The translations under genes were made by a program, and so were the position numbers. A stretch of 38,771 nt of DNA from Clostridiaceae bacterium (GTDB lineage Bacteria > Bacillota > Clostridia > Oscillospirales > Acutalibacteraceae), in contig JAEEUW010000010.1 of assembly GCA_016290665.1 (NCBI GenBank), forward strand, positions 1 to 38,771, in the 5' to 3' direction. Below are positions 5,764 to 28,653 of the stretch, one piece after another; position 1 is the stretch's first letter, and the number at the start of each line of letters is the position of its first letter. The notes beneath the pieces were generated by a model. It saw only the letters and a program-made list of their open reading frames with translations, made no database searches and was not told the DNA's origin.

Positions 5764-8700
5764 ATGATCAAGATTCTCGCGCTGTTCTGGACCGTGCTGA
5801 CCCTGCTGGTCTTCGCGTTCGGCAAGCCGGGCCCGGCGCCCTATGACCCCGCCGATTACGCCGCCGGACAGCCGCAGTCTGTGACGGAGGGCAGCCTCCG
5901 CGTGGAGCTGCTGCGCGACAGTCTGGTGCGTCTGGAAACAAAAGGCCCGCGCGGGTTTGAAAACCGGCCCTCGTTCACCGTGGAAAAGCGGACCGGCTGG
6001 AACGACGTCGCCTTCACCGAGAAAAGCGAAAACGGCTATCGGCTGATCGAAACCGCGCATTACACGGTCCACGTGCCGCTGGGCGCGCAGTCGGCGGCGG
6101 GCTGCTTCATCACCGACCCGCAGGGGAAGCGCCTTTGGCAGTTTGAAAGCGACACCGACAGCAACGTCTTCCTGCCCTCCGCCTCCGACGCGCTGCAAAG
6201 CTGGTCGTTCACCGACACGCCGCGCGTGATCCCCTCGTCCGACGGCTACAGCGTGGCAAAAAACTTTTATGAAAACAACGGCTGGGATCTCAGGAACGAC
6301 GCGCAGGACGTGTTCGTCTTTTTGCCCGGCGGCAGCTACAAGACCTTCCTGCAGGATTTCACCGACCTGTGCGGCAAGACCGAGCTGCTGCCGCTGAACC
6401 TGTTCGGCTACTGGGATTCGCGCTACTATGAATACAACCAGAAAACCGCCCGGCAGCAGATCCGCGACTACTATGACAAGGGCTATCCGCTGGACGTTCT
6501 GGTGATCGACACCGACTGGCGCATTTCCGCCGGCGGCACGGGCTACAACATCAACCGTCTGTTGTTCCCCGCGTTCGAGCAGTTTGCCCGCGAAACGCAC
6601 AGGCAGGGCGTGTCGCTCGTGTTCAACGACCACCCGGAGCCGACCCGCGGCTGCGAGAATCTGCTGGATAAATACGAGATGTTCTACCGCACGACGAACC
6701 TGCAGAAGATCCTCAAAAAAGGGCTCGACTACTGGTGGTACGACCGCAACTGGTGGACCAGCCTGAAGCCCGTTCACGACGACCTTTCCATCTACACCAC
6801 GGGCATGTACGCCTACCACTGGATCACAAAGGACTATTACGACCGCGCCGCGTGCAAGGGCGAAAGCGCCCGCCGGCCGATCATCATGGCCAACGTGGAC
6901 GGCGTGGGCAACGGCACGCTGGAATACCCGAGCGAACTGGCCGCCCACCGCTACGCGCTGCAGTGGACGGGCGACATCGGCACCGACAACCGGTCGCTGG
7001 CGCAGGAGATCGAAAACATGGTCCTGCTGGGCAACGAACTCGCCCTGCCCTACACCAGCTCCGACCTCGGCGGCCACACGTCCGACGTGACGCCCGAAAT
7101 GTATATCCGCTGGATCCAGTACGGCGCGCTCTCGCCGATCATGCGCGTGCACTGCACCAAGCCCTATTCGCGGATGCCGTGGCTGTTCGGCGAAACCGCC
7201 GAGCGCGTGACGCACACCTACACGGATCTCCGCTACCGGCTGCTGCCGCTCTATTACGCGCTGGCGCACGAAAACTATGAAACCGGTCTGCCGCTGCTGC
7301 GGCGGCTGGACACGGCCTATCCGCAGTATGCGGAAGCCGACCGCAACGACGAATATCTGCTCGGCGACAGTCTGCTGGTGGCCCCGCTGAGCGAAAGCGA
7401 GCCGCTTGCCGAGGATTACAGCTTCACCTGCGGCGGCAAGGAGGGCCTCAAAGGCGAATACTTTGCCAACGACACCTTCTCCGGCGAGCCGGAGGTGGTG
7501 CGCCAGGACAAAACCGTGTATTTCGACTGGGGCTACAGCGCGCCGCAGGGCCTTTCGGTCTCCGATTACTTCTCGGTGCGCTGGACGGGCGAGCTGGCCG
7601 TGGGTGCAAAGCCCGTGCGCCTGACCGCCTATGCCGACGACGGCATCCGCATCTGGCTGGACGGCGAAAAGATCGTTGACGGCTGGGATACCTTCAACAC
7701 CCTGTTCACCACCGATTACATTCCCGCGAACAGCCGCCATTCGATCAAGATCGAATTCCGCGACGGCAACAACCACGCCCACGTGTTCGTGTCGCTGTTC
7801 ACCACCGGCGACGTCTCGCGCGACGTCTTTTTGCCCGACGGCGCGTGGATGGACGTCTGGACGGGCGAAACCTTTGTCGGCCCGAAAACGGTCACCGTCC
7901 GCCACGGGCTTGCGACCTCTCCCCTCTTCGTGCGCATGGGCGGCGTGCTGGTTCTGGCGGACAACATGAAAAACACGAGCGAAAAAGACTGGCGCCGCCT
8001 GACGCTCGACGTTTATCCGGGCGCCGACCGCGGCGGCAAGACCACGCTCTATGAAGACGACGTGACCACCGTCGCCTACAAGGACGGCGCGTTCCGCACC
8101 ACGGAGATCTCCCTTTCCGGCGGCAAGACCCAGACGCTGACGATCGCGCCCGCCGAAGGCCACTTCAAGGGCAGCCGGGCCTTTTCCGACCGCAGCTGGA
8201 CGGTGCGCGTCCACGGCCGCGCCGGCTGGGGCAAGCTGCTTTCCGCAACGCGGAACGGCAAGCCGGCCGCATGGAAAACGGTTGCGCAAGACAAGGACGC
8301 CGACCCGCTGGCCGTCACCGGCGGCGCGCGCGACGGCACGGTGTATGAGCTGACCTTCACCGCGCCGGTCGGCGAGGCGCAGACGCTCGCGTTCACGTTT
8401 GAACAGGCGCCGCGGGACGGCACGAACAAGGACTATGACCGCAGCCGGGCGGAGTTGTCGCTCTCGGTGCGCAGGCTGGAAAAGCAAAGCGCCGCCTTCA
8501 CGATCGATGACGGCTGCCGCGACTTTGCCGTGTTTGCCGCCGACCGCGATTTCACCGCGGTGCGCAAGCGGAACGGCGACGGATCCGTGGGCGAAGCGAC
8601 CGTCGGCGGAGAAAAGAACCTCTTTGACGACAACTATTCCATCGGCTGGACCGGCGGCGACACGCAGAACCGCGGCAGCACGACTTGCGGCCTGGTTTCG

Positions 8701-8955
8701 AACCGCAGCTTCACGCTGACGCTGCACGCGAGCGGCAGGGAAACGTTCCGGCTTTACGTCGGCGGGTTCCGGAGCCTGAGCGCGCTGACCGTGCGCGACC
8801 GCAGCGGCAACGTGCAGACCGTTTCCTTCGGCAACACGGACGGCAACTACTACCGCGAAGTGACAATCGAAGCCGACGGCAGCAGCGAGCTGGAGGTCAC
8901 CTGCCGTCTGCTGTGCGGCAGCAACATCACGCTGGCGGCCTGCACGGCGCAGTAA
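5764..8955 (+). CDS. glycoside hydrolase family 31 protein with PA14 domain, exported/anchored
   Basis: IDTDWRIS, SSDLGGHTSDVTPEMYIRWIQYGALSPIMRVHC (GH31), KGEYFANDTFSGEP...YFSVRWTGEL (PA14), GAWMDVWTGETF (C-terminal beta domain), N-terminal hydrophobic segment. ATG at 5755 is also possible. Confidence 0.85.
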   Translation: MIKILALFWTVLTLLVFAFGKPGPAPYDPADYAAGQPQSVTEGSLRVELLRDSLVRLETKGPRGFENRPSFTVEKRTGWNDVAFTEKSENGYRLIETAHYTVHVPLGAQSAAGCFITDPQGKRLWQFESDTDSNVFLPSASDALQSWSFTDTPRVIPSSDGYSVAKNFYENNGWDLRNDAQDVFVFLPGGSYKTFLQDFTDLCGKTELLPLNLFGYWDSRYYEYNQKTARQQIRDYYDKGYPLDVLVIDTDWRISAGGTGYNINRLLFPAFEQFARETHRQGVSLVFNDHPEPTRGCENLLDKYEMFYRTTNLQKILKKGLDYWWYDRNWWTSLKPVHDDLSIYTTGMYAYHWITKDYYDRAACKGESARRPIIMANVDGVGNGTLEYPSELAAHRYALQWTGDIGTDNRSLAQEIENMVLLGNELALPYTSSDLGGHTSDVTPEMYIRWIQYGALSPIMRVHCTKPYSRMPWLFGETAERVTHTYTDLRYRLLPLYYALAHENYETGLPLLRRLDTAYPQYAEADRNDEYLLGDSLLVAPLSESEPLAEDYSFTCGGKEGLKGEYFANDTFSGEPEVVRQDKTVYFDWGYSAPQGLSVSDYFSVRWTGELAVGAKPVRLTAYADDGIRIWLDGEKIVDGWDTFNTLFTTDYIPANSRHSIKIEFRDGNNHAHVFVSLFTTGDVSRDVFLPDGAWMDVWTGETFVGPKTVTVRHGLATSPLFVRMGGVLVLADNMKNTSEKDWRRLTLDVYPGADRGGKTTLYEDDVTTVAYKDGAFRTTEISLSGGKTQTLTIAPAEGHFKGSRAFSDRSWTVRVHGRAGWGKLLSATRNGKPAAWKTVAQDKDADPLAVTGGARDGTVYELTFTAPVGEAQTLAFTFEQAPRDGTNKDYDRSRAELSLSVRRLEKQSAAFTIDDGCRDFAVFAADRDFTAVRKRNGDGSVGEATVGGEKNLFDDNYSIGWTGGDTQNRGSTTCGLVSNRSFTLTLHASGRETFRLYVGGFRSLSALTVRDRSGNVQTVSFGNTDGNYYREVTIEADGSSELEVTCRLLCGSNITLAACTAQ

Positions 8956-8973
8956 AAAGTCCCGCGCCGAAGA

Positions 8974-9002
8974 TTGACAAGCCGTACGTTTCGTTGTATC
9001 AT
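8974..9002 (+). promoter_or_regulatory. sigma-A type promoter
   Basis: TTGACA-17 bp-TATCAT upstream of the CDS at 9038. Confidence 0.6.
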
Positions 9003-9037
9003 AAAAGGCGATCTTTCCAAAGAAAGGAACATGACTC

Positions 9038-10006
9038 ATGAATAATGTCAAAATTCTGCTGCAGCGGTTCGTTTCGGCGGTGCTGGCGTTCTTTCTGGCG
9101 TTTCTGCCGTTCGCGAACGGCAAAAAGCCCAAGGATCCGGGCGACGCGGTCTGCAAGGTGGCCATCGTGTCCGACGTGCATATCGACCGCCGTCTGCCGG
9201 CCGGCCAGCTGGCGCTGCAAAACTGCTACAAGGACATGCTTTCGCTTTCGCCCGACGGCATCGCCGTGCTCGGCGACCTGACCAACTACGGCGACAAGGC
9301 GACGCTGGAACGGTTCTTTGAAATCACGCGGGATACGATCCCGGCGGACGTCGGCACGGTCGTCATTGCCGGCAACCACGACATCGGCCACGCGAAGGAG
9401 GCCGACGGCGAACGGATGAACCCCGAGGCGCTGGCGGACTTTGTGGACTGCTGCAACCGCTATCTGGATTACGGCCTTGAGCATCCCTATTACACGATTG
9501 AAGTGAACGGTTACCCGTTCATCTGCCTCAACGACGAGAGCGCCGACAACTGGGACCGCCCGGAATACAGCGACGACGCGCTGCGCTTTCTGGAGGACGA
9601 GCTGACAAAATATGACGGCAGCGGCAAGCCGGTGTTCGTGCTGCTGCACGTGCCGCTTGCGGGCGTTCACGGCGAAGAGAACTTCTATCCCGACGGCGGC
9701 ACGGAGGAGCCCTGGAGCAGCCGGATTCAGACTGCGCTGGAAGCGCACAAAAACGTGTTCTGCCTGAGCGGCCATCTGCACAAGGGGCTTTCCAACAAGA
9801 TCGACACGCCGACCTATACCTGCGTCAACGGCGTGCATTACCTGAATCTGCCGTCCTATCTGATGCCGAACTGGCCGGTGGATTACGCGGTCAACGGGCT
9901 GGGCTTCTTCATGGAGATCAGTGAAAGCGCGGTGCTCTTCCGCTGCCGGAACTATTACATGCACAACTGGGTGGACAATTTCGACTATCTGTGCAAGCTG
10001 GTATAA
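9038..10006 (+). CDS. membrane-anchored calcineurin-like metallophosphoesterase (paralog 2)
   Basis: VSDVHID / VLGDLTNYGD / AGNHDIG / SGHLHKG motifs, N-terminal anchor. Confidence 0.85.
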   Translation: MNNVKILLQRFVSAVLAFFLAFLPFANGKKPKDPGDAVCKVAIVSDVHIDRRLPAGQLALQNCYKDMLSLSPDGIAVLGDLTNYGDKATLERFFEITRDTIPADVGTVVIAGNHDIGHAKEADGERMNPEALADFVDCCNRYLDYGLEHPYYTIEVNGYPFICLNDESADNWDRPEYSDDALRFLEDELTKYDGSGKPVFVLLHVPLAGVHGEENFYPDGGTEEPWSSRIQTALEAHKNVFCLSGHLHKGLSNKIDTPTYTCVNGVHYLNLPSYLMPNWPVDYAVNGLGFFMEISESAVLFRCRNYYMHNWVDNFDYLCKLV

Positions 10007-10020
10007 CCGCATACAAACGC

Positions 10021-10052
10021 AACGGACGTCCTGAAAGGGGCGTCCGTTTTTT
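10021..10052 (+). terminator. intrinsic terminator
   Basis: AACGGACG...CGTCCGTT followed by TTTT. Confidence 0.75.
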
Positions 10053-10093
10053 CGTCCTTAGCGCAAAGCGGCTGACTTTCCTGTTTTTTCCTC

Positions 10094-10122
10094 TTGACAA
10101 ACGGCCGCGGAGGGCGTATGAT
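10094..10122 (+). promoter_or_regulatory. consensus sigma-A promoter without an obvious cognate downstream gene
   Basis: TTGACA-17 bp-TATGAT. Confidence 0.6.
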
Positions 10123-10127
10123 GTTAT

Positions 10128-10141
10128 CGAACAAATGTTCG
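10128..10141. promoter_or_regulatory. LexA/DinR SOS box
   Basis: CGAACAAATGTTCG; 13/14 to the Bacillus-type CGAACATATGTTCG, placed just downstream of the -10 element. Confidence 0.65.
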
Positions 10142-10153
10142 ATTTAGCCGTTG

Positions 10154-10191
10154 AGAAAAAGCGGCACCCGCTCCCGGAAGAGAGCGGGTGC
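10154..10191 (-). terminator. intrinsic terminator of the surface-protein gene
   Basis: GCACCCGCTC/GAGCGGGTGC stem with a T tract on the minus strand. Confidence 0.7.
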
Positions 10192-10205
10192 ACGGTTCAA
10201 CCGTG

Positions 10206-13200
10206 TCAGCGCTTGAAAATCGCAAGGATGTTGTGGAAGAACCTGATCAGCCACGCGAACGGGCCGGTGTGGATCTCGCCGCAGTATTTGCAGCGCTGCG
10301 AAGCTTTGAGGTCGGCGCCGCAGTCGCGGCAATAGCCGCTGCCGTTGTCGGTGTGGGGTTTCTTTGCAACGCTCTGCGTCTCCTTGTGGCTGCCGTCGCG
10401 GGTGCAGGTGCGGGTCTGCTGCCCTTCGGCGGTGCAGGTGGGCTGCTTGGTGACAACCCAGCCGCCCCAGGCGTGGCCTTTGGCCGGCACCTGCTCGGTT
10501 CTGGTTGCGGGGCAGTTGACGCAGGTGAAGGTCTTCACGCCCGCCGCCGTGCAGGTCGGCTGCGTGGTCACAACGCCGGCGTTCCAGCTGTGCTCCGCCT
10601 TGGGAATGACCGTCTGGGCTTTCAGGACTTCGCCGCAAGCATCACACACGCTGCCGTCGGTCAGGCCGGTCTGCGTGCAGGTGGCCGCTTTGCCGGGCAC
10701 GGTTTTCGGCATGTGGGGCAAACGCCCGATCTCCGCCGTTTCAAGCACGGCCCCGCAAACGGTACACTCGGTATGCTTGCTGCCGGCGCGCTTGCAGGTG
10801 GCCGGTGTGTCGGTGATCCAGCCGGAGGAAACGTGGCGCAGCGCGGTGCCTTCTGCTTCAAAGGTATGGCTGTCGTTCCCTTCCACAGCGCCGCAGTCTT
10901 TGCAGGAATAATAGTAGACCGCATTCTTTGCGCAGGCAGCAGCAGATTTCAGCGCCGCCTCTTTCACCGCTGCGGCCGTATAGACGTGAACGCCGGTCGG
11001 GTCGATCGTTGTGTTCTGGCCGCGCACCGCGCCGCAGACGGAGCACGCTTCGTGCCCCGCGCCCGCCGCGCTGCAGGTGGGCGCCGTGTCGGTGATCCAC
11101 ACCCAGCTGTGCGCGCCGGTCGGCGCCAGCGCCGCGTAGGTCGTGTAATCGCAGCGCGTGCAGGTCTCATACGCCGCCCAGCCGCTTTCGCCGCAGGTGG
11201 GCGCCCGGCCTTCGTGCTGCACCTTGTCGTGCCCGAGGGCCGGAATTACAACGCTTTCATTCAGCACCTCGCCGCACAGGGCGCAGACCGCTTTGCCGCT
11301 GCCGGGCGCGGTGCAGGTGGCCGGAACAACGGGCACAACGGTCGCTTCGTGCGTGCTGCAGACCGCGGAGCCGCCCGAAACCTCGTTTTCAATTTCCGTC
11401 ACATAAACGGCGGGGACCACGCCGTGCATATCGTTGGACCAGGCCGACGTGAAGCCCACAGCGCCGCCGGGGAAGACCCCGCAGGGGCGTCTGCCGAAAA
11501 AGTTGTCGGCGGCATTGCGCAGCACCCAATAGTTGTCCGAAGCACTGCGGTTTTCCAAAGCATAGGGAGTGAATTGCAGCTTTCTTGTTTCGGCGTCAAA
11601 GCCGTAGCCGGCGTTCAGCGCCTGCGCCGACGAAAGCAAGAACACCGGATCGTCGGTGGTCTCCCAGTCATATCGCTCATACCCGGCTGTGCCGCGCAGG
11701 GTCATCATGCCCCGGTTGTCCTGCTCGGTCGTCCTGATCTTTGCCCGCTGCGCGTCGTTGAAGGCGGTATTCCAAAAATCGTTGATCAAAAAGTCGCGGA
11801 TGTGGCTGACCGTGTAATCGGTGGCGTAATGGGTCCGCGCCTCGTCCGCCCAGCCGTCATTGTCCCAATAATCATCATAATAGTTGCCGCGCTGATAAAC
11901 AAGAGATTCCATGATCTCGTTGCACATCAGCAGCCCGTTTTCGGGGTCCAGAATGCGCCAGGTCAAAGGCTCAAACTTATAATACCAGACATATTTCACA
12001 AGCGCTCCGTCGGTGAAGCTGTAATCATAGCCGGCATAGACCTTCGGCTTCGGCGCATTCACGGAGGTGCTTGTGTCCTCCCGGATCATAACGGTGTATT
12101 CAATCTTTGCTCTGTATTTTTGACCGTTTTGGATCAGATCCGCATAATCCGTGTAATAATCCGCATCAAAGTTCCAGCGGTATTCACTGATTGTCAGGTT
12201 GCGCTGCGGCGCAAGGGGCAGCCGTTCGTTCAGCGCGGCGATCACGGCTTCGTCCGTCTCTTTGCTTTGCGGATAGCTTCCGAAATGGACAAGATCGCCG
12301 ACATGCAGCAGCGCATCGCCGCCGGCGTCGTTTCTGAGCGTTTCCAGCCGCATGGCCGGGCAAACGCCGTAGTAAGCGTTGGTGTCTTTGAGATTGGCGG
12401 GGGCGGAGCTCATGGCGCCGCTTTGGTTGACTGCGCAGTCGTAGTTCATATTAAAATATTTGCTCACGGTGCGGGTCCACCACGCGGCGGTCTCTGCGCC
12501 GGAACCGCCAAGGCCCTGCGCCTTTGCGTAATCCGTGCCGGCCAGCGCTCTTGCGGCGTCGGCGCTTCTGCCGTTCGTGTTGAAGCCGGCGTCTGCGCTG
12601 CAAAGATCATCCCAGGCGGGCAAAAAGATTTTGTCTGCGGTTGCGGGCGCGTCATACCGGTGCGCACCGTTTCCGCCGGCCCCGCTGCCGACATACCAGT
12701 AATCGTTCGTAAGCGGTTCCGCCAGAATGTTTTCCTGCTGCGCCGCGCTGAAGGCAGTTGTCAAAAAATGCTCGTTGAGCCACACGCTGATGGTTTCCCA
12801 CCAGCCGCCGGAATGGTTGCTGTCGGTAATGCTGCCGTATTCGCCCGTATAGAACGAAGACGCAAGCGCGTTCCGGTAAACGGCAAACGGCTGACTGTCG
12901 ATCAGGGCGGTGCACACAACAAGGCCGCTGTCGGGGTCGATCACGCACCAGCGCAGGGGCTCAAAACGAAACCAGTAGGTGTTCCCCGCCGGATAGCCGT
13001 TTTGCGCCTGATACCCGCTTTCCTGCCCGTCCGGCGTGGTGTTGGGCCGGCTTTCGTCAATGGTGACGCCTCTGTATTTGACGTTTTGAAACACAACGTC
13101 AATATAGCTCATGCCGTCAAAGGGCAGGCAAACCCCGACGTCCGCGCCGGTGCCGATCTCGTTGCCGTAATAGCGAAATGTCTTTTGCTCGCCGGGAAGC

Positions 13201-22070: not shown

Positions 22071-22985
22071 TTATCGCATAAACGTCAGATGCTCCGCCAG
22101 ATACTTACGCAGCTGCACGTGCAGCGGCTCGCTCGCCGGCACGTCGTCGTCTTCAAACACGTCGCCGAACATCTCCAGATGCGCCATGCGGATCACCGAG
22201 CTGGAAAGCATCGGAATCAGCGTGCCGAACACCTTGGTGCTGTTGTTCATCAGCCGCGCGTCCACGCCGAAGACCATGTTGCCCTTCTTCTTCCAGATGC
22301 CGTTCAGGATGTTGCCGACCATGCGGTCGCACGAGGTGGAAACCATCTGCAGCGCCTTTTCGCTGAAGTCGGATTCGTCGCCCTTCTTCTGGTTCGAGAA
22401 GATGTCGGTCTTGGTGAAGCCCGGACAGACGAGGCCCACGTAGCACAGGCCGCGGCACTCTTCGCGCACGGATTCCGTCAGGCTCTTGAGCGCCGCCTTG
22501 CTCGCGGAATAGATGCTGGTGCCCGCCAGCGAGCACAGCGCCGCGGACGAGGCGATGTTGACAAGGCCCGGCGTCTGCGATTTCAGAAGCATCGGCAGCA
22601 GCGCGTTCATGGAATAGACGCAGGAATAAAAGTTGATCTGCATCGCGCGGTCGATGTCCTCGAGCGAATAGTTGAGGAATTTGTCGAACTTCGGCAGGAT
22701 GCCGGCGTTGTTGATCAGGATGTCGGGCTGCACGTTCTGCTCTTTCAGCGCTTCGGCAAAGGTGCGCCAGTTTTCCTTTTCGGAAACGTCGAACAGGAAA
22801 TAGGAAAAATAGCGTCTGCGGTCGCCGAGCTCTTCCACCAGCGCGCGCATTTTGGCTTCGTTGCGCGCAACGCCGATTACGCGGCAGCCGTGGTCGGCAA
22901 TCAGCTTTTTCACAAGGCCCTTGCCGATGCCGCTGGACGCGCCCGTGACGATCACCGTTTTATAATCGAACCAGCATTCTGTCAT
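22071..22985 (-). CDS. short-chain dehydrogenase/reductase
   Basis: TVIVTGASSGIGKGLVKKL, INNAGI, YSASKAALKSLTESVREE; start at MTECWF with ggaagggg RBS. Confidence 0.85.
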   Translation of the reverse strand: MTECWFDYKTVIVTGASSGIGKGLVKKLIADHGCRVIGVARNEAKMRALVEELGDRRRYFSYFLFDVSEKENWRTFAEALKEQNVQPDILINNAGILPKFDKFLNYSLEDIDRAMQINFYSCVYSMNALLPMLLKSQTPGLVNIASSAALCSLAGTSIYSASKAALKSLTESVREECRGLCYVGLVCPGFTKTDIFSNQKKGDESDFSEKALQMVSTSCDRMVGNILNGIWKKKGNMVFGVDARLMNNSTKVFGTLIPMLSSSVIRMAHLEMFGDVFEDDDVPASEPLHVQLRKYLAEHLTFMR

Positions 22986-23125: not shown

Positions 23126-23177
23126 AAAAGCAACGCCTCCTTTTGGAAGCGTTGCTTTTCAGCTGCCGTTTATTCCA
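23126..23177. repeat. left direct repeat of the AT-rich island (includes terminator hairpin)
   Basis: 50/52 identical to 26687-26738; core aaaagcaacgcctccttttggaagcgttgcttttc is identical in both copies. Confidence 0.9.
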
Positions 23178-25218
23178 TATCTGCGGTAACAACTTCACCG
23201 CTGTATTCATTACAAATCCATTCCCAACGAGTAACTCGTTTGGTCATAGCCAGAGTATTAATGGGATCAGAAATAAAACAAATAGTTATTTGAGAATCGG
23301 TCTGGCACGCAATAGCCAGATAGTAACTCTTTTTATACTGCATTGCAGTGGTGTATTCATTATTGGAAAACGAGAATACATCACCAAGGCAGCTCACACT
23401 CTTGACTTCATAGTAGCGCTTTCTTCCATCTACGAGGCCAACTTCTATGTCATACCCCATGTTTTGGGTTGAAACATCTATTACAGAAGAAACGCCATCC
23501 ATTTGCTCAAGAACAGCAGCAACATTCATTTCAACGCTTCGCCATTTGTTAATCACTCGGTTTTTACTAAATGTTTCCCTCTGCGTTTCGACATTGGAAG
23601 ATGCCAACGAATGAACCACTCCATTCTCTATGGGTTGGTTCATCGCCAATTGTTCTGTTTTTAGTCCAATGATTTTAGTAAAAGCAGTATAATCGGCTGG
23701 AGTGGCGAGCGATTCAATAACTGCGCCCTCAAAAGCTGCGTTTACAACTTCATTACCTTCCAGATCTGCAGAAGAAACTACACCTGAATTGAAGCTAATT
23801 AGTTTGGCTTCAGCTATTTTCTGAGCCATTCTCTCAGACATACCAAATCTTGATTGGTTTATCGCTTTGACCAAAACACACTCTCTTGTTTTTGCTGAAC
23901 ATTCGATTATTTTCATTGCATCTAAGCATTGTTCCAGAGGGATTTCTTTATATCCAAGAGAACTCAATAAATCTGTAAGGCCTTGAATCTTTTTTTCATC
24001 CTTTTTTCCTGCGCCTTTAATCGCAAGAGCTACTGAAATCTTATCGAAGTCAGCATCCGTCATTCCAATCGGCTGCAAAAACACTTCTTTTTCACTGCCG
24101 TAGATGTCACAAACAACTGCTTTTAGGTTTTTGAATAATTGCTCCACAAGAACATCGTTTATATCTTTTCCTTTGATTTGAAATAAAGGATCAATCTGAG
24201 CTTTTTTTATAACATTTACTATGCCAAAATCATCTGTGCCATCAACAAGGATTGATTCAACTAAGTGCGAAAGAATGTTAGCGCATTGCTTTGTAGCGCT
24301 GTTCGTATCTTCATCCAAAACAACTTTAGTTCTGGAAGGGTCAGTAGAAAAATCGCCGTTGATTTTTATCGGCATACTAAGTGAATTAAGCGTTGGCATA
24401 AAAGAGTGAACAACAGCTTCTTTGTTGTTAGCAGCTATTATTCTGTTGCCATCATACTTAAAAGCAACTGCGCTTTTTCCAGTATCTTTTGTAAATGGGG
24501 TAACTAACCATGCGCTTGAATCAGAATCAGACTCTGCTTGAACTAACAAAAAAGTATTGTTAAGTTGTTCTCGATTAATGCTATAGCTCTTTTTGTTATC
24601 AATATGGAATTCAACAGTTACAATGGACTGCAAGAAGATCATCGAATCACTGTTAAAGCATTTAACTTCTTCAGAAAGAGAATGGTTCTTTACCTCGAAA
24701 ATAAATACAGTTTTATATCCCTGGCTTTGAAGATCATTAATAATAGGATAATAGGATTCTCCGCTAAAACGATGTGGAATACGAATCATGGGTACTTCGT
24801 TTGCTTCTGGTATGACTTTCTTTGTGAGATTGCGTGAAAAAGTTGTCTTTATGTCTCCACTAACCAAATGAACAGTTTCCGCATAGTTTACAACAGACTT
24901 AAAGCCTATTCCTCTAAACCCGATCGTATTCCCTTTCCTTTGCTTTGTGGAAGAACCGCTTCGACAAAGAGCAAGAATATCATTATCTGAAAATTCTCTG
25001 CCATCATTTGCAACCATGTAAGTGCTTATACTCAATGCTTTAATTAAGAATCGCTTTGCACCAGCATCATCCGCATTTTGCAATAATTCAATTAAGGATC
25101 GGCCGGTGTAGCTTTCAGAGATGTATTTCTCCATGCTAGCTAAATCCTTGAAAAGTAGTGGAGAACTCAACGCTTCTTTCAAAAACAAGTTTTGAATTGT
25201 ATCAATAATATAAGACAT
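23170..25218 (-). CDS. sacsin/NO VEIN-type HATPase with C-terminal DUF3883-like (PD-(D/E)XK-fold) domain
   Basis: SYTGRSLIELLQNADDAGAKRF, VANDGREFSDNDILALCRSGSSTKQ, TIGFRGIGFKSV (GHKL ATPase motifs); C-terminal NMGYDIEVGLVDGRKRYYEVKSVSCLGDVFSFSNNEYTTAMQYKKSYYLAI. Confidence 0.8.
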   Translation of the reverse strand: MSYIIDTIQNLFLKEALSSPLLFKDLASMEKYISESYTGRSLIELLQNADDAGAKRFLIKALSISTYMVANDGREFSDNDILALCRSGSSTKQRKGNTIGFRGIGFKSVVNYAETVHLVSGDIKTTFSRNLTKKVIPEANEVPMIRIPHRFSGESYYPIINDLQSQGYKTVFIFEVKNHSLSEEVKCFNSDSMIFLQSIVTVEFHIDNKKSYSINREQLNNTFLLVQAESDSDSSAWLVTPFTKDTGKSAVAFKYDGNRIIAANNKEAVVHSFMPTLNSLSMPIKINGDFSTDPSRTKVVLDEDTNSATKQCANILSHLVESILVDGTDDFGIVNVIKKAQIDPLFQIKGKDINDVLVEQLFKNLKAVVCDIYGSEKEVFLQPIGMTDADFDKISVALAIKGAGKKDEKKIQGLTDLLSSLGYKEIPLEQCLDAMKIIECSAKTRECVLVKAINQSRFGMSERMAQKIAEAKLISFNSGVVSSADLEGNEVVNAAFEGAVIESLATPADYTAFTKIIGLKTEQLAMNQPIENGVVHSLASSNVETQRETFSKNRVINKWRSVEMNVAAVLEQMDGVSSVIDVSTQNMGYDIEVGLVDGRKRYYEVKSVSCLGDVFSFSNNEYTTAMQYKKSYYLAIACQTDSQITICFISDPINTLAMTKRVTRWEWICNEYSGEVVTADME

Positions 25219-25220
25219 AA

Positions 25221-25574
25221 TTAAGCATTCCTTACGGCATAAAGTCGTCCCTTTGTAGCATTATTTAGTGTATTATCATCATAACATAGAATCTTCAAGG
25301 TATCATATCCTCTAAAATCACAAGAGAATAACGCTTGGCTCTCGCAGTATAATAATTCACCATCCGAATCATAAAGATTGATCTTTATATCAACATTTGT
25401 TGAAATCTTTGAGCCTTTTATACTTGCTAATTCAACATAGACATCAAGATGAGCAGAAGTTGAAGAAGTGGGTCTACAACTCACATTTAGAACTTGTAAA
25501 TTGTTTCCTTCAAAGGTGTTAGTCATTATTTGAATATTCTTTTTTAGTTCTTTTGCTAGATCTTCATAAACCAT
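25221..25574 (-). CDS. 117-aa protein of unknown function, probable beta-rich fold
   Basis: Starts after aagagcggagg RBS; stop lies 2 nt before the HATPase start codon. Confidence 0.75.
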   Translation of the reverse strand: MVYEDLAKELKKNIQIMTNTFEGNNLQVLNVSCRPTSSTSAHLDVYVELASIKGSKISTNVDIKINLYDSDGELLYCESQALFSCDFRGYDTLKILCYDDNTLNNATKGRLYAVRNA

Positions 25575-25645
25575 AGCTTATAACCTCCGCTCTTTATCTT
25601 ATAGATGATAATCTTAAAAAAATCGACTGGGTAGTTATCAATTGA

Positions 25646-26566
25646 CTACACTTTTCTTTTTTTAAATAACGGGCTTTTCTCAATCCTTTCATCTACGTTT
25701 CGATGTTTAATAGCATCACATATACTACTCAAATCAGGCATCAAATGAAATGTATTATAACCAAGAGTGTCTAAGTATTGAATCAATTCTTTTCTTAAAT
25801 CTTTGTGAACCTTAATACAGAAAGAGTTTCCTTCGAGAATAGACAAATGCTCCTCTAGATCCAAAGTGTACGGAAACATGAACAGCCCTTGTTGCATAAT
25901 AATCCTTTGATTTGATTGATTCGGATCAATAAAGAGAATCGCACGATTTTTTATCTTTTTTTCCGTTTTTCCGTTTTCCGGCTCGTTTGTGTCTTTATAT
26001 GTGCCCAAATCAAACGCTTCACGTCTTAGCCAGTTTTTGCCAAAAAAATCATTGACGCTATCAATGCATTGGCACGCTTTTGTAGCAAGTGAATCGGTTC
26101 GAGTCAACTGATTGTTGTATAAATCATGCTTCAAAGAAATCGAAGAAAGGCAGAGATTATCTTTGATGCTTGCACATCTAATATAATAATAGTTCTTATC
26201 TTCTGGAACTTTATATGCACCGTTTGATTTTTTTGAATACAATGCAAATGACAAGGCAATAAACGGATTATAAGTGAAATCTAACAGTCTTGTTGGAAGT
26301 CCAAAATGCTGTGCAAACGACATAAAATCGATTGGTGTCGTTGCATGAAAATAATTACTACCATATTTTTCAAAGTCTTTCAGAAACTTATTCTCAATAT
26401 TAGAATAATCACCGTCTCGAATAATTCTAGGAATCAATTCGTCCTGCTTTCCATAACCTCTGAACACATATGTACCCATTCTTGCGAGTTCGTTTAATCT
26501 GCTGATTACTGATTGCGCTCCATCCACTGCATCAAATGTGTCGAAACAAGCATTTTGTAATACCAT
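25646..26566 (-). CDS. FRG domain-containing protein
   Basis: TYVFRGYGKQDELIPRIIRDG...FMSFAQHFGLPTRLLDFTYNPFIALSFALYS matches the FRG domain pattern. Confidence 0.85.
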   Translation of the reverse strand: MVLQNACFDTFDAVDGAQSVISRLNELARMGTYVFRGYGKQDELIPRIIRDGDYSNIENKFLKDFEKYGSNYFHATTPIDFMSFAQHFGLPTRLLDFTYNPFIALSFALYSKKSNGAYKVPEDKNYYYIRCASIKDNLCLSSISLKHDLYNNQLTRTDSLATKACQCIDSVNDFFGKNWLRREAFDLGTYKDTNEPENGKTEKKIKNRAILFIDPNQSNQRIIMQQGLFMFPYTLDLEEHLSILEGNSFCIKVHKDLRKELIQYLDTLGYNTFHLMPDLSSICDAIKHRNVDERIEKSPLFKKRKV

Positions 26567-26643
26567 GTTGAAACTCCCTAATTCTATCCGTTGAGTTTGT
26601 ATCTTTTTTATCGCACAGCTGTAGTTAATCTTAAGTGTTATTT

Positions 26644-26672
26644 ATTATATCACATAAGGGTATTTAGGTCAA
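26644..26672 (-). promoter_or_regulatory. sigma-A promoter of the FRG/HATPase operon
   Basis: Minus strand TTGACC-17 bp-TATAAT, inside the island next to the right repeat. Confidence 0.65.
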
Positions 26673-26686
26673 TTACTATTAAATCA

Positions 26687-26738
26687 AAAAGCAACGCCTC
26701 CTTTTGGAAGCGTTGCTTTTCGGTTGCCGTTTATTCCA
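26687..26738. repeat. right direct repeat of the AT-rich island, overlaps the 3' end and terminator of the ABC gene
   Basis: See 23126-23177; contains the stop codon of the ABC gene (26731-26733). Confidence 0.9.
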
Positions 26739-28653
26739 GCTCAAACGCGCCCTGATAGAGCTTGGCGTAGGTGCCGCCCTGGGCGATCAGCTGGTCGTGC
26801 GTGCCGCGCTCGATGATGCGGCCGTGGTCCAGCACCATGATGACGTCGGCGTTCTGCACCGTGGAAAGGCGGTGGGCGATCACGAAGACCGTGCGGCCCT
26901 TCATCAGCGCGTCCATGCCCTTCTGGACCAGCGCTTCGGTGCGCGTGTCGATCGAGGACGTCGCTTCGTCCAGGATCATCACCGGCGGGTCGGCCACGGC
27001 GGCGCGCGCAATGGAGATGAGCTGGCGCTGGCCCTGCGAAAGGTTGGCGCCGTTGCTCGTCAGCATGGTGTCGTAGCCCTGCGGCAGACGCGAGATGAAG
27101 CCGTGGGCGTTGGCCTTCTTTGCCGCGTCGATGATCTGTTCGTCCGTGGCGTCCAGATTGCCGTAGCGGATGTTCTCCTTCACCGTGCCGGTGAACAGGT
27201 TGACGTCCTGCAGCACGATGCCCAGCGAGCGGCGCAGGTCGTTCTTCTTGATCTTGTTGATGTTGATGCCGTCATAGCGGATCTTGCCGTCGGCAATGTC
27301 ATAGAAGCGGTTGATCAGGTTCGTGATCGTCGTCTTGCCCGCGCCCGTGGCGCCCACGAAGGCCACCTTCTGACCCGGCTCGGCATAAAGCGAGATGTCG
27401 TGCAGGACGGTCTTGCCCTCCACGTAGGCGAAGTCCACGTCGAACAGACGCACCTCGCCCATGAGCGGCGTATAGGTCACGGTGCCGTCGCCGTGCGGGT
27501 GCTTCCACGCCCAGTGGCCGGTGTGTTCGTCGGTTTCGGTCAGCGCGCCGTTTTCGGTCTTTGCATTGACCAGCGTCACGTAGCCGTCGTCGCTTTCCGG
27601 CGCGGCGTCCATCAGGTCAAAGATGCGCTCGGCGCCGGCCAGCGCCATGACCACGGCGTTGAGCTGCTGCGAGAACTGGTTGATCGGCATCACGAACGAG
27701 CGCGACAGCTGCATGAACGCCGCCACGGCGCCGAGGTTCAGCCCGCCGATGCCGCGGGTCGCCATCAGGCCGCCGAGGATCGCCACCAGCACGTACTGCA
27801 GATGGCCGAGGTTGTTGTTGATCGGGCCCAGGTTGTTGGCAAAGCGGTTCGCCTGCGTGGTGTTTTCGCACAGCGCGTCGTTCTTTTTGTCAAACGCTTC
27901 CTTGACCCTGTCTTCGCGGCAGAAGACCTTAACCACCTTCTGGCCGTTCATCATCTCTTCGATATAGCCGTTGACGTCGCCGAGGGCGCTTTGCTGCTTG
28001 ACAAAGTATTTGCCCGACTGGCCGGCCACCTTGCCCGTGACGAAGAACATGAACGCGATGAACAGCACCACGAAGATCGTCAGGTGCCACGAGGTCGCCA
28101 CCATGGAGACGAACACCGCCACCACCGTGACGAACGACGAAAGCGTCTGCGGCACCGTCTGCGAGATCATCTGGCGCAGCGTGTCGGCGTCGTTGGTGTA
28201 ATGGCTCATCACGTCGCCGTGGGTATGGGTGTCGAAATATTTGATCGGCAAAGTCTGCATATGGGCGAACATCTCGTTGCGGATCTTTTTGAGCACGCCC
28301 TGCGCCACGACCGCCATGGTGCGGTTCTGCAGATAGACCGCGGCCACGCCGGCAAGATAGATCGCCGCCATTTTGCACAGCGCCCAGAAGAGCGGCCTGT
28401 AGTCGGCGGTCTGCTGCTTCACCAGCGGCAGGATGTAGTCGTTGATCAGCGTTTTGAGGAACAGCGACGCCGCCACGCTGGCCGCGGCGGTCACGATGAT
28501 GCAGACCGCAACGACCATGAGGCGCAGCCAGTTGCCCTGTGTGATGGCGCGCAGCAGGCGCGTCACGGTGCCCTTTTTCACCTTTTGCTTGGGCACGCCG
28601 CGGAAGTTCTGGCCGCGCGGCGGGGGCATTCTGCGGGTTTCACCTTCAGCCAT
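26731..28653 (-). CDS. ABC transporter, fused permease/ATP-binding protein
   Basis: VGATGAGKTTITNLINRFYD (Walker A), LSQGQRQLISIARA signature, VMILDEATSSID. Confidence 0.9.
   Translation of the reverse strand: MAEGETRRMPPPRGQNFRGVPKQKVKKGTVTRLLRAITQGNWLRLMVVAVCIIVTAAASVAASLFLKTLINDYILPLVKQQTADYRPLFWALCKMAAIYLAGVAAVYLQNRTMAVVAQGVLKKIRNEMFAHMQTLPIKYFDTHTHGDVMSHYTNDADTLRQMISQTVPQTLSSFVTVVAVFVSMVATSWHLTIFVVLFIAFMFFVTGKVAGQSGKYFVKQQSALGDVNGYIEEMMNGQKVVKVFCREDRVKEAFDKKNDALCENTTQANRFANNLGPINNNLGHLQYVLVAILGGLMATRGIGGLNLGAVAAFMQLSRSFVMPINQFSQQLNAVVMALAGAERIFDLMDAAPESDDGYVTLVNAKTENGALTETDEHTGHWAWKHPHGDGTVTYTPLMGEVRLFDVDFAYVEGKTVLHDISLYAEPGQKVAFVGATGAGKTTITNLINRFYDIADGKIRYDGININKIKKNDLRRSLGIVLQDVNLFTGTVKENIRYGNLDATDEQIIDAAKKANAHGFISRLPQGYDTMLTSNGANLSQGQRQLISIARAAVADPPVMILDEATSSIDTRTEALVQKGMDALMKGRTVFVIAHRLSTVQNADVIMVLDHGRIIERGTHDQLIAQGGTYAKLYQGAFELE

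Follow-up and report, generated by a model that had tools for sequence, protein, structure and literature searches.

The DNA analyzed here, a 38,771-nt stretch from a Clostridiaceae bacterium (hereafter, the window), carries an AT-rich cassette that is probably a two-gene ATP-gated nuclease defence unit accompanied by an FRG gene, unrelated and accessory. Conservation as a unit extends to two genes, which encode a 117-aa protein and a 682-aa HATPase, and not to all three. The FRG gene lies outside this unit and is a separate defence gene that happens to be a neighbour in this genome. The features of the cassette and its flanks are collected in Table 1.

Table 1. Features of the cassette and the adjoining host genes (positions in the window).
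Feature	Position	Strand	Content or basis
Host short-chain dehydrogenase gene, one side of the insertion spot	22071..22985	-	
52-nt direct repeat, left copy	23126..23177	.	hairpin AAAAGCAACGCCTCC-TTTT-GGAAGCGTTGCTTTT plus last codons and stop of the HATPase gene
Compact GHKL ATPase (SACS) + DUF3883/NOV_C nuclease-like protein, 682 aa	23170..25218	-	ORF call, Pfam
DUF3883 (PD-(D/E)XK-like) domain, residues 559-682	23173..23544	-	Pfam, predicted structure, alignment
117-aa partner gene, predicted Ig/FN3-like beta-sandwich	25221..25574	-	ORF call, profile searches, predicted fold
FRG-domain (ART superfamily) gene, 306 aa	25646..26566	-	ORF call, Pfam, PADLOC
Promoter TTGACC-17-TATAAT, extended -10	26644..26672	-	promoter scan
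52-nt direct repeat, right copy	26687..26738	.	terminator hairpin plus last codons and stop of the ABC transporter gene
Host ABC transporter gene, other side of the insertion spot	26731..28653	-	

Composition and boundaries of the cassette

The GC content was 35.8% between the two copies of the 52-nt repeat and 60.8% in the remaining window. GC3 ranged from 22% to 32% in the three cassette genes and from 84% to 90% in the two flanking host genes. Because both measures contrast with the flanks, the AT-rich block is not a product of chance, and its interpretation as foreign DNA, horizontally acquired by a GC-rich spore-forming bacterium, is supported. An earlier note on this sequence had described an AT-rich block with three same-strand genes in GC-rich DNA, and that description was borne out, with all three ORFs on the minus strand. 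The 2-nt distance that it gave between the stop codon of the 117-aa gene and the start of the HATPase gene was likewise correct. The FRG gene is separated from the 117-aa gene by 71 nt, with a good Shine-Dalgarno sequence (AGCGGAGG); a terminator was looked for between these two genes and none was found. The promoter claimed in the same note does exist as a sequence pattern, and in a suitable position: it matches the consensus at 11 of 12 positions and lies 77 nt ahead of the FRG start. Its weight comes from this score and position, since promoter-like sites in total were no more frequent than expected by chance (9 observed, 11.1 expected). An Rfam search of the window returned no match.

The two copies of the 52-nt repeat are 96% identical and in direct orientation. 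Each consists of a 15-bp terminator-like hairpin and a gene end, and the last codons and stop within the repeat are common to the ABC transporter and HATPase genes. The left copy folds with -26.2 kcal/mol (z -5.2) and the right copy with -32.8 kcal/mol (z -7.7). The limits that the earlier note had drawn around the cassette, 23126-26738, coincide exactly with the outer edges of the repeat, which that note did not mention. The repeat was found just twice in the host genome, with no further occurrence of its hairpin, and it was absent from the viral contigs searched; at other HATPase loci, the search for comparable flanking terminator repeats gave just short or AT-rich matches. An integron gene cassette was considered and rejected, as the repeat, by reading, has no attC RYYYAAC/GTTRRRY core. 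There was no integrase within the cassette.

Other genomes provided a view of the site itself. In one of the same genus (G010), the ABC transporter gene is followed directly by the dehydrogenase gene with about 280 nt between them and no insert, and in a further genome (G001), a different gene occupies the gap. Since the gap is empty in the first and holds another gene in the second, it looks like a variable insertion spot. The 52-nt repeat may have originated as a recombination site, from a circular molecule that carried a copy and recombined, or by local duplication.

Genetic linkage of the 117-aa gene and the HATPase

Relatives of the HATPase were collected by scanning genome contigs with an alignment of three relatives as the query. 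This yielded 70 loci, mostly with full-length proteins of about 680 aa; a first scan of the genome contigs with the lone HATPase sequence had given no matches. A gene with the partner domain was found beside the HATPase in 41 of the 70 loci, a frequency that is not unbiased because the loci were gathered via the subfamily's own motifs. The partner was on the HATPase strand in all 41 cases. Spacing was mostly between -50 and +30 nt, a 4-nt overlap being frequent, and the smaller partner gene usually came first, overlapping or abutting the HATPase gene. With the 117-aa protein of the window as the single query, phmmer detected more than 25 loci with an adjoining partner (E < 0.01).

A domain profile was then compared with 39 of the genomes that have a HATPase-family locus. 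It produced 29 matches, and all 29 were at that locus, as judged from the match positions and the contig ranges of the HATPase loci. Among 399 genomes sampled evenly from the phylum, the profile matched just the window and two other genomes, G513 and G774. The partner domain adjoins the HATPase in G513. In G774, the domain gene has an IS transposase as its neighbour, and a HATPase was not seen on the contig stretch read, which speaks against a strict two-gene unit.

On the HATPase tree, the partner was present in 33 of the 34 members of the window's clade and in none of the 26 members of the sister clade, a distribution requiring 2 changes compared with 19.9 in shuffles. The partner-bearing clade is a deep one that spans at least seven phyla, and its HATPases are compact (about 680 aa). 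Its sole exception (L061) sits on a very long branch, so that its placement is unsure, and has two tandem genes of another kind, of about 160 aa each, downstream. The sister clade, which manages without a 117-type partner, also counts against the two-gene unit, and it implies that this type of HATPase does not require the partner in general. Pairwise distances of HATPases and partners were correlated over 33 loci (r = 0.893; shuffle maximum 0.451), and much of this co-divergence reflects close relatives, as the correlation for distant pairs only was 0.47.

The FRG gene as a probable accessory

The FRG protein scored 69.1 bits in the Pfam search (cut-off 25) and matched PADLOC PDC-S15 at 2.6e-36. 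It is an ordinary member of the FRG-domain candidates (PDC-S15; ART superfamily), located upstream of the 117-aa/HATPase pair. FRG proteins have been proposed to be effectors of the ART superfamily, possibly NADases (PMC9503650). Searching the 39 HATPase-locus genomes for PF08867 identified nine FRG genes, none of which (0/9) was at the HATPase locus. Two FRG homologues from the same genus are 49-51% identical to that of the window: one is flanked by hsdS and hsdR in a type I system, and the other immediately precedes a type IV restriction enzyme, alongside a NUDIX gene.

The earlier note had interpreted the three genes as one anti-phage or abortive-infection module with the FRG protein as a second effector, which in such a module the HATPase would control. 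Much about the cassette would fit this: the genes share a strand and a common upstream promoter, the 71-nt gap has no detected terminator, and all three arrived in a single cassette. The genus homologues, too, directly precede the DNA-cleaving subunit of other systems, so the FRG protein may be coupled functionally to the nuclease that follows it. We nevertheless regard the three-gene module as unlikely, given that the FRG gene was absent from every HATPase locus examined in the 39 genomes and that its homologues accompany type I and type IV restriction operons. A check for co-occurrence of the exact FRG, 117-aa and HATPase trio elsewhere found it in this window alone. With three different operons in a single genus, the pattern instead fits an FRG accessory effector gene that roams and comes to rest ahead of DNA-cleaving systems.

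The HATPase-DUF3883 protein

Two Pfam domains, SACS and NOV_C (DUF3883), were detected above their cut-offs in the 682-aa protein. The putative catalytic residues of the ATPase (E44, N48, D51, and R296) were invariant in all 33 compared sequences, and so were those of the conserved E...D...ExK of DUF3883 (E563, D590, E604, and K606); the G boxes of the ATPase were likewise invariant in the relatives. The predicted structure (pLDDT 86) has a low-confidence linker, residues 525-560, in front of the DUF3883 domain. A fold search pointed to Hsp90, MORC2, GyrB, and MutL, with alignments to the last three at modest TM-scores. The assignment of a GHKL ATPase with DUF3883 as a nuclease-like domain, made in the earlier note, is sustained by the domains and the invariant catalytic residues of 33 sequences, while the nuclease activity itself is a prediction from them. 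That note had also expected PADLOC to be negative, which was wrong for two of the genes, as the HATPase matches TmtA (3.3e-52) and the FRG protein matches PDC-S15.

The TmtA match raises the question of an ordinary divergent Tiamat that has lost its middle region, the 117-aa gene standing in for a domain that is fused in longer versions. TmtA models do match both ends of the protein. This origin seems improbable, however, since full-length members of the clade from different phyla measure about 670-770 aa, which marks the compact two-domain form as an old architecture. In addition, two genomes with long relatives, G807 (1595 aa) and G606 (1073 aa), contain no 117-type domain at E <= 0.001.

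The 117-aa partner

The structure predicted for the 117-aa protein (pLDDT 95.6) is a beta-sandwich with an N-terminal helix. Its best structural matches were small beta-sandwich proteins and Ig/FN3-like domains, at modest TM-scores, and we are confident of an Ig/FN3-like beta-sandwich at the level of the predicted model. No family was assigned by Pfam, NCBIfam, or PHROGs, and a plasmid search found no homologue. A single-sequence search of the order recovered the window alone; two weak matches (E 0.006-0.008) were rejected, as they sit in unrelated ORFs. Pairwise BLASTP did not match the 117-aa protein to the partner in G513, which the domain profile recognizes at 2.3e-26, although this partner is one row of the profile; HMMs seeded without G513 also recover it. 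The literature on DUF3883 that was searched (open-access publications other than preprints) held no description of a 117-aa and HATPase unit, and the partner family appears to be undescribed in these libraries and this literature.

Partners elsewhere in the family are modular. The domain is fused to ankyrin repeats (L096 and L109), HIRAN (L057 and L059), a zinc ribbon (L056), or uncharacterized regions, reaching up to 670 aa, and several operons carry two tandem partners. This variety suggests sensor or adaptor subunits that feed one nuclease. It is harder to reconcile with a toxin-antitoxin-like pair, in which the 117-aa protein would be an antidote silencing the HATPase nuclease and the cassette would serve addiction or its own stabilization rather than phage sensing. 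Such a pair would explain why the small gene is usually first and overlaps or abuts the gene of the larger enzyme, and the mobile context would suit it; yet large, fused, and tandem partners are unlike simple antidotes, the island neighbours are defence genes, and we give this reading little credence.

Defence context

Within 6.5 kb of the HATPase loci, PADLOC matched type I RM, BrxL, Avs2, and type IV REase genes, as well as PARIS, AbiE, AbiL, HerA/SIR2, PD-T4-2, Hhe, and Mokosh, in a tally that was uncontrolled. These neighbours support a defence role of the HATPase loci without proving it, and no phage assay of any family member came to light. The designation of the cassette as defence-type in the earlier note agrees with them and with the GHKL and PD-(D/E)XK-like domains. 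A non-defence function as a sacsin- or MutL-like factor of protein quality control or DNA repair, to which the sacsin-type domain and the resemblance of the GHKL fold to Hsp90 and MutL could point, is very unlikely in view of the patchy spread (2 of the 399 genomes sampled in the phylum), the mobile island setting, and the presence of a fused nuclease domain whose catalytic residues do not vary.

Proposed mechanism

For the two-gene unit, we propose, by analogy with VcSduA, that a GHKL dimer gates DUF3883 and that recognition or restraint comes from the beta-sandwich partner. The 682-aa protein would be a GHKL ATPase of a compact, Tiamat-like type, with DUF3883 at its C terminus acting as a PD-(D/E)XK nuclease. 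The 117-aa beta-sandwich would be its dedicated partner, binding the ATPase and determining the timing or the target of nuclease action; recognition is favored for this role because the partner fusions carry recognition-type modules. Upon phage infection, the GHKL module would dimerize and rearrange in an ATP-dependent manner, setting DUF3883 free to cut DNA, either that of the invader or that of its own cell (abortive infection), which may protect against the phage. The FRG protein would act as a separate back-up effector, consuming NAD or ADP-ribosylating its targets.

As a more tentative extension, the 117-aa fold may be a shared docking domain through which one GHKL-DUF3883 nuclease takes interchangeable partners and so responds to several infection signals. 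Some partners consist of the bare domain, and others add ankyrin, HIRAN (DNA-end binding), zinc-ribbon, or uncharacterized modules. If the partners are indeed interchangeable sensors, this would be a bacterial case in which the signal inputs to a single nuclease are modular.

The analysis defines an unnamed Ig-like partner family that is clearly linked, at the genetic level, to a single clade of GHKL-nuclease enzymes across at least seven phyla, and it turns the vague annotation "HATPase + DUF3883" into a testable two-component system. In addition, FRG drops out of the unit, and the results suggest that genes of this type move about as add-ons to DNA-targeting systems.

Comparison with known systems

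Among known systems, one of the closest is Tiamat, with the protein TmtA (PADLOC PDLC03964-03972). The whole-protein match of the 682-aa HATPase is confined to two ends: the N-terminal sacsin-type HATPase (residues 5-308 against model positions 13-338, 1.5e-42) and the C-terminal DUF3883 (positions 1448-1518 of a 1538-position model, 4.8e-11). TmtA models are 1063-1782 aa long, and their middle region has no match in the window protein. Tiamat is a single-gene system, whereas 33 of the 34 loci of the window's clade have a partner gene. With about half the length of TmtA and a partner gene that is absent from the two long relatives, the HATPase is a variant of the GHKL-nuclease kind and not a standard Tiamat.

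Sacsin and NO VEIN share the SACS and NOV_C Pfam domains with the window HATPase, which differs from them in being short, prokaryotic, and two-domain; repeats, HEPN, and DnaJ were not found in it. Prokaryotic MORC and paraMORC proteins, in which GHKL-S5 modules are tied to restriction-type nucleases in defence loci (PMC2292703), may be related to it in fold, as the fold search returned MORC2 and MutL at modest TM-scores, and have a nuclease domain of another type.

VcSduA, a GHKL-type Shedu, also has an N-terminal GHKL domain, and its conserved motifs and fold recur in the window HATPase. Its nuclease domain is DUF4263, in contrast to DUF3883/NOV_C here, where Pfam finds no DUF4263, and the VcSduA text consulted describes no such partner gene (PMC12137116). 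According to the same text, the N-terminal GHKL ATPase of VcSduA is thought to control its C-terminal PD-(D/E)xK nuclease, and ATPase mutants and nuclease mutants each lose anti-phage activity (PMC12137116). VcSduA is the closest experimentally tested analogue of the window HATPase in architecture.

Insertion Site of the Cassette

The cassette lies between two copies of a 52-nt direct repeat, for which no further copy was found elsewhere in the host genome, and the interval they bound is without an integrase. In G001 the same gap between the ABC transporter and short-chain dehydrogenase genes is occupied by a 453-aa gene (L136) with a lower GC content (46%), and this spot is therefore variable within the genus.

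Coordinates of the repeats and of the compared loci
Feature	Sequence	Position	Content
52-nt direct repeat, two copies	window	23126-23177 and 26687-26738	terminator hairpin and last codons; one on each side of the cassette
Partner-less clade member with tandem ~160-aa genes downstream	L061	10008-11220	
Partner homologue locus	L132 (G774)	7193-10397	119-aa partner homologue, preceded by a HEPN (pEK499_p136) gene and a 254-aa gene and followed by an IS transposase

Gene Neighborhoods of the Homologues

Members of the sister HATPase clade (L052, L112, L113, L114, L085, and others) have upstream partners of other kinds, either ~210-aa proteins with C-terminal '..KARLNVTLIDYV' or proteins of 800-1400 aa. 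L061, the only member of the window's clade lacking the partner, is followed downstream by two tandem ~160-aa genes resembling each other; the one scanned yielded no Pfam family.

No HATPase was seen on the G774 stretch carrying the 119-aa partner homologue, and this gene group is possibly a disrupted unit or a different unit. A GmrSD-type gene also lies near this homologue.

Homologues of the window's FRG gene in L142 (G007) and L141 (G005) occur in two settings: in the hsdS/hsdR interval of a type I RM operon, and immediately 5' of a type IV restriction enzyme that is accompanied by a NUDIX gene.
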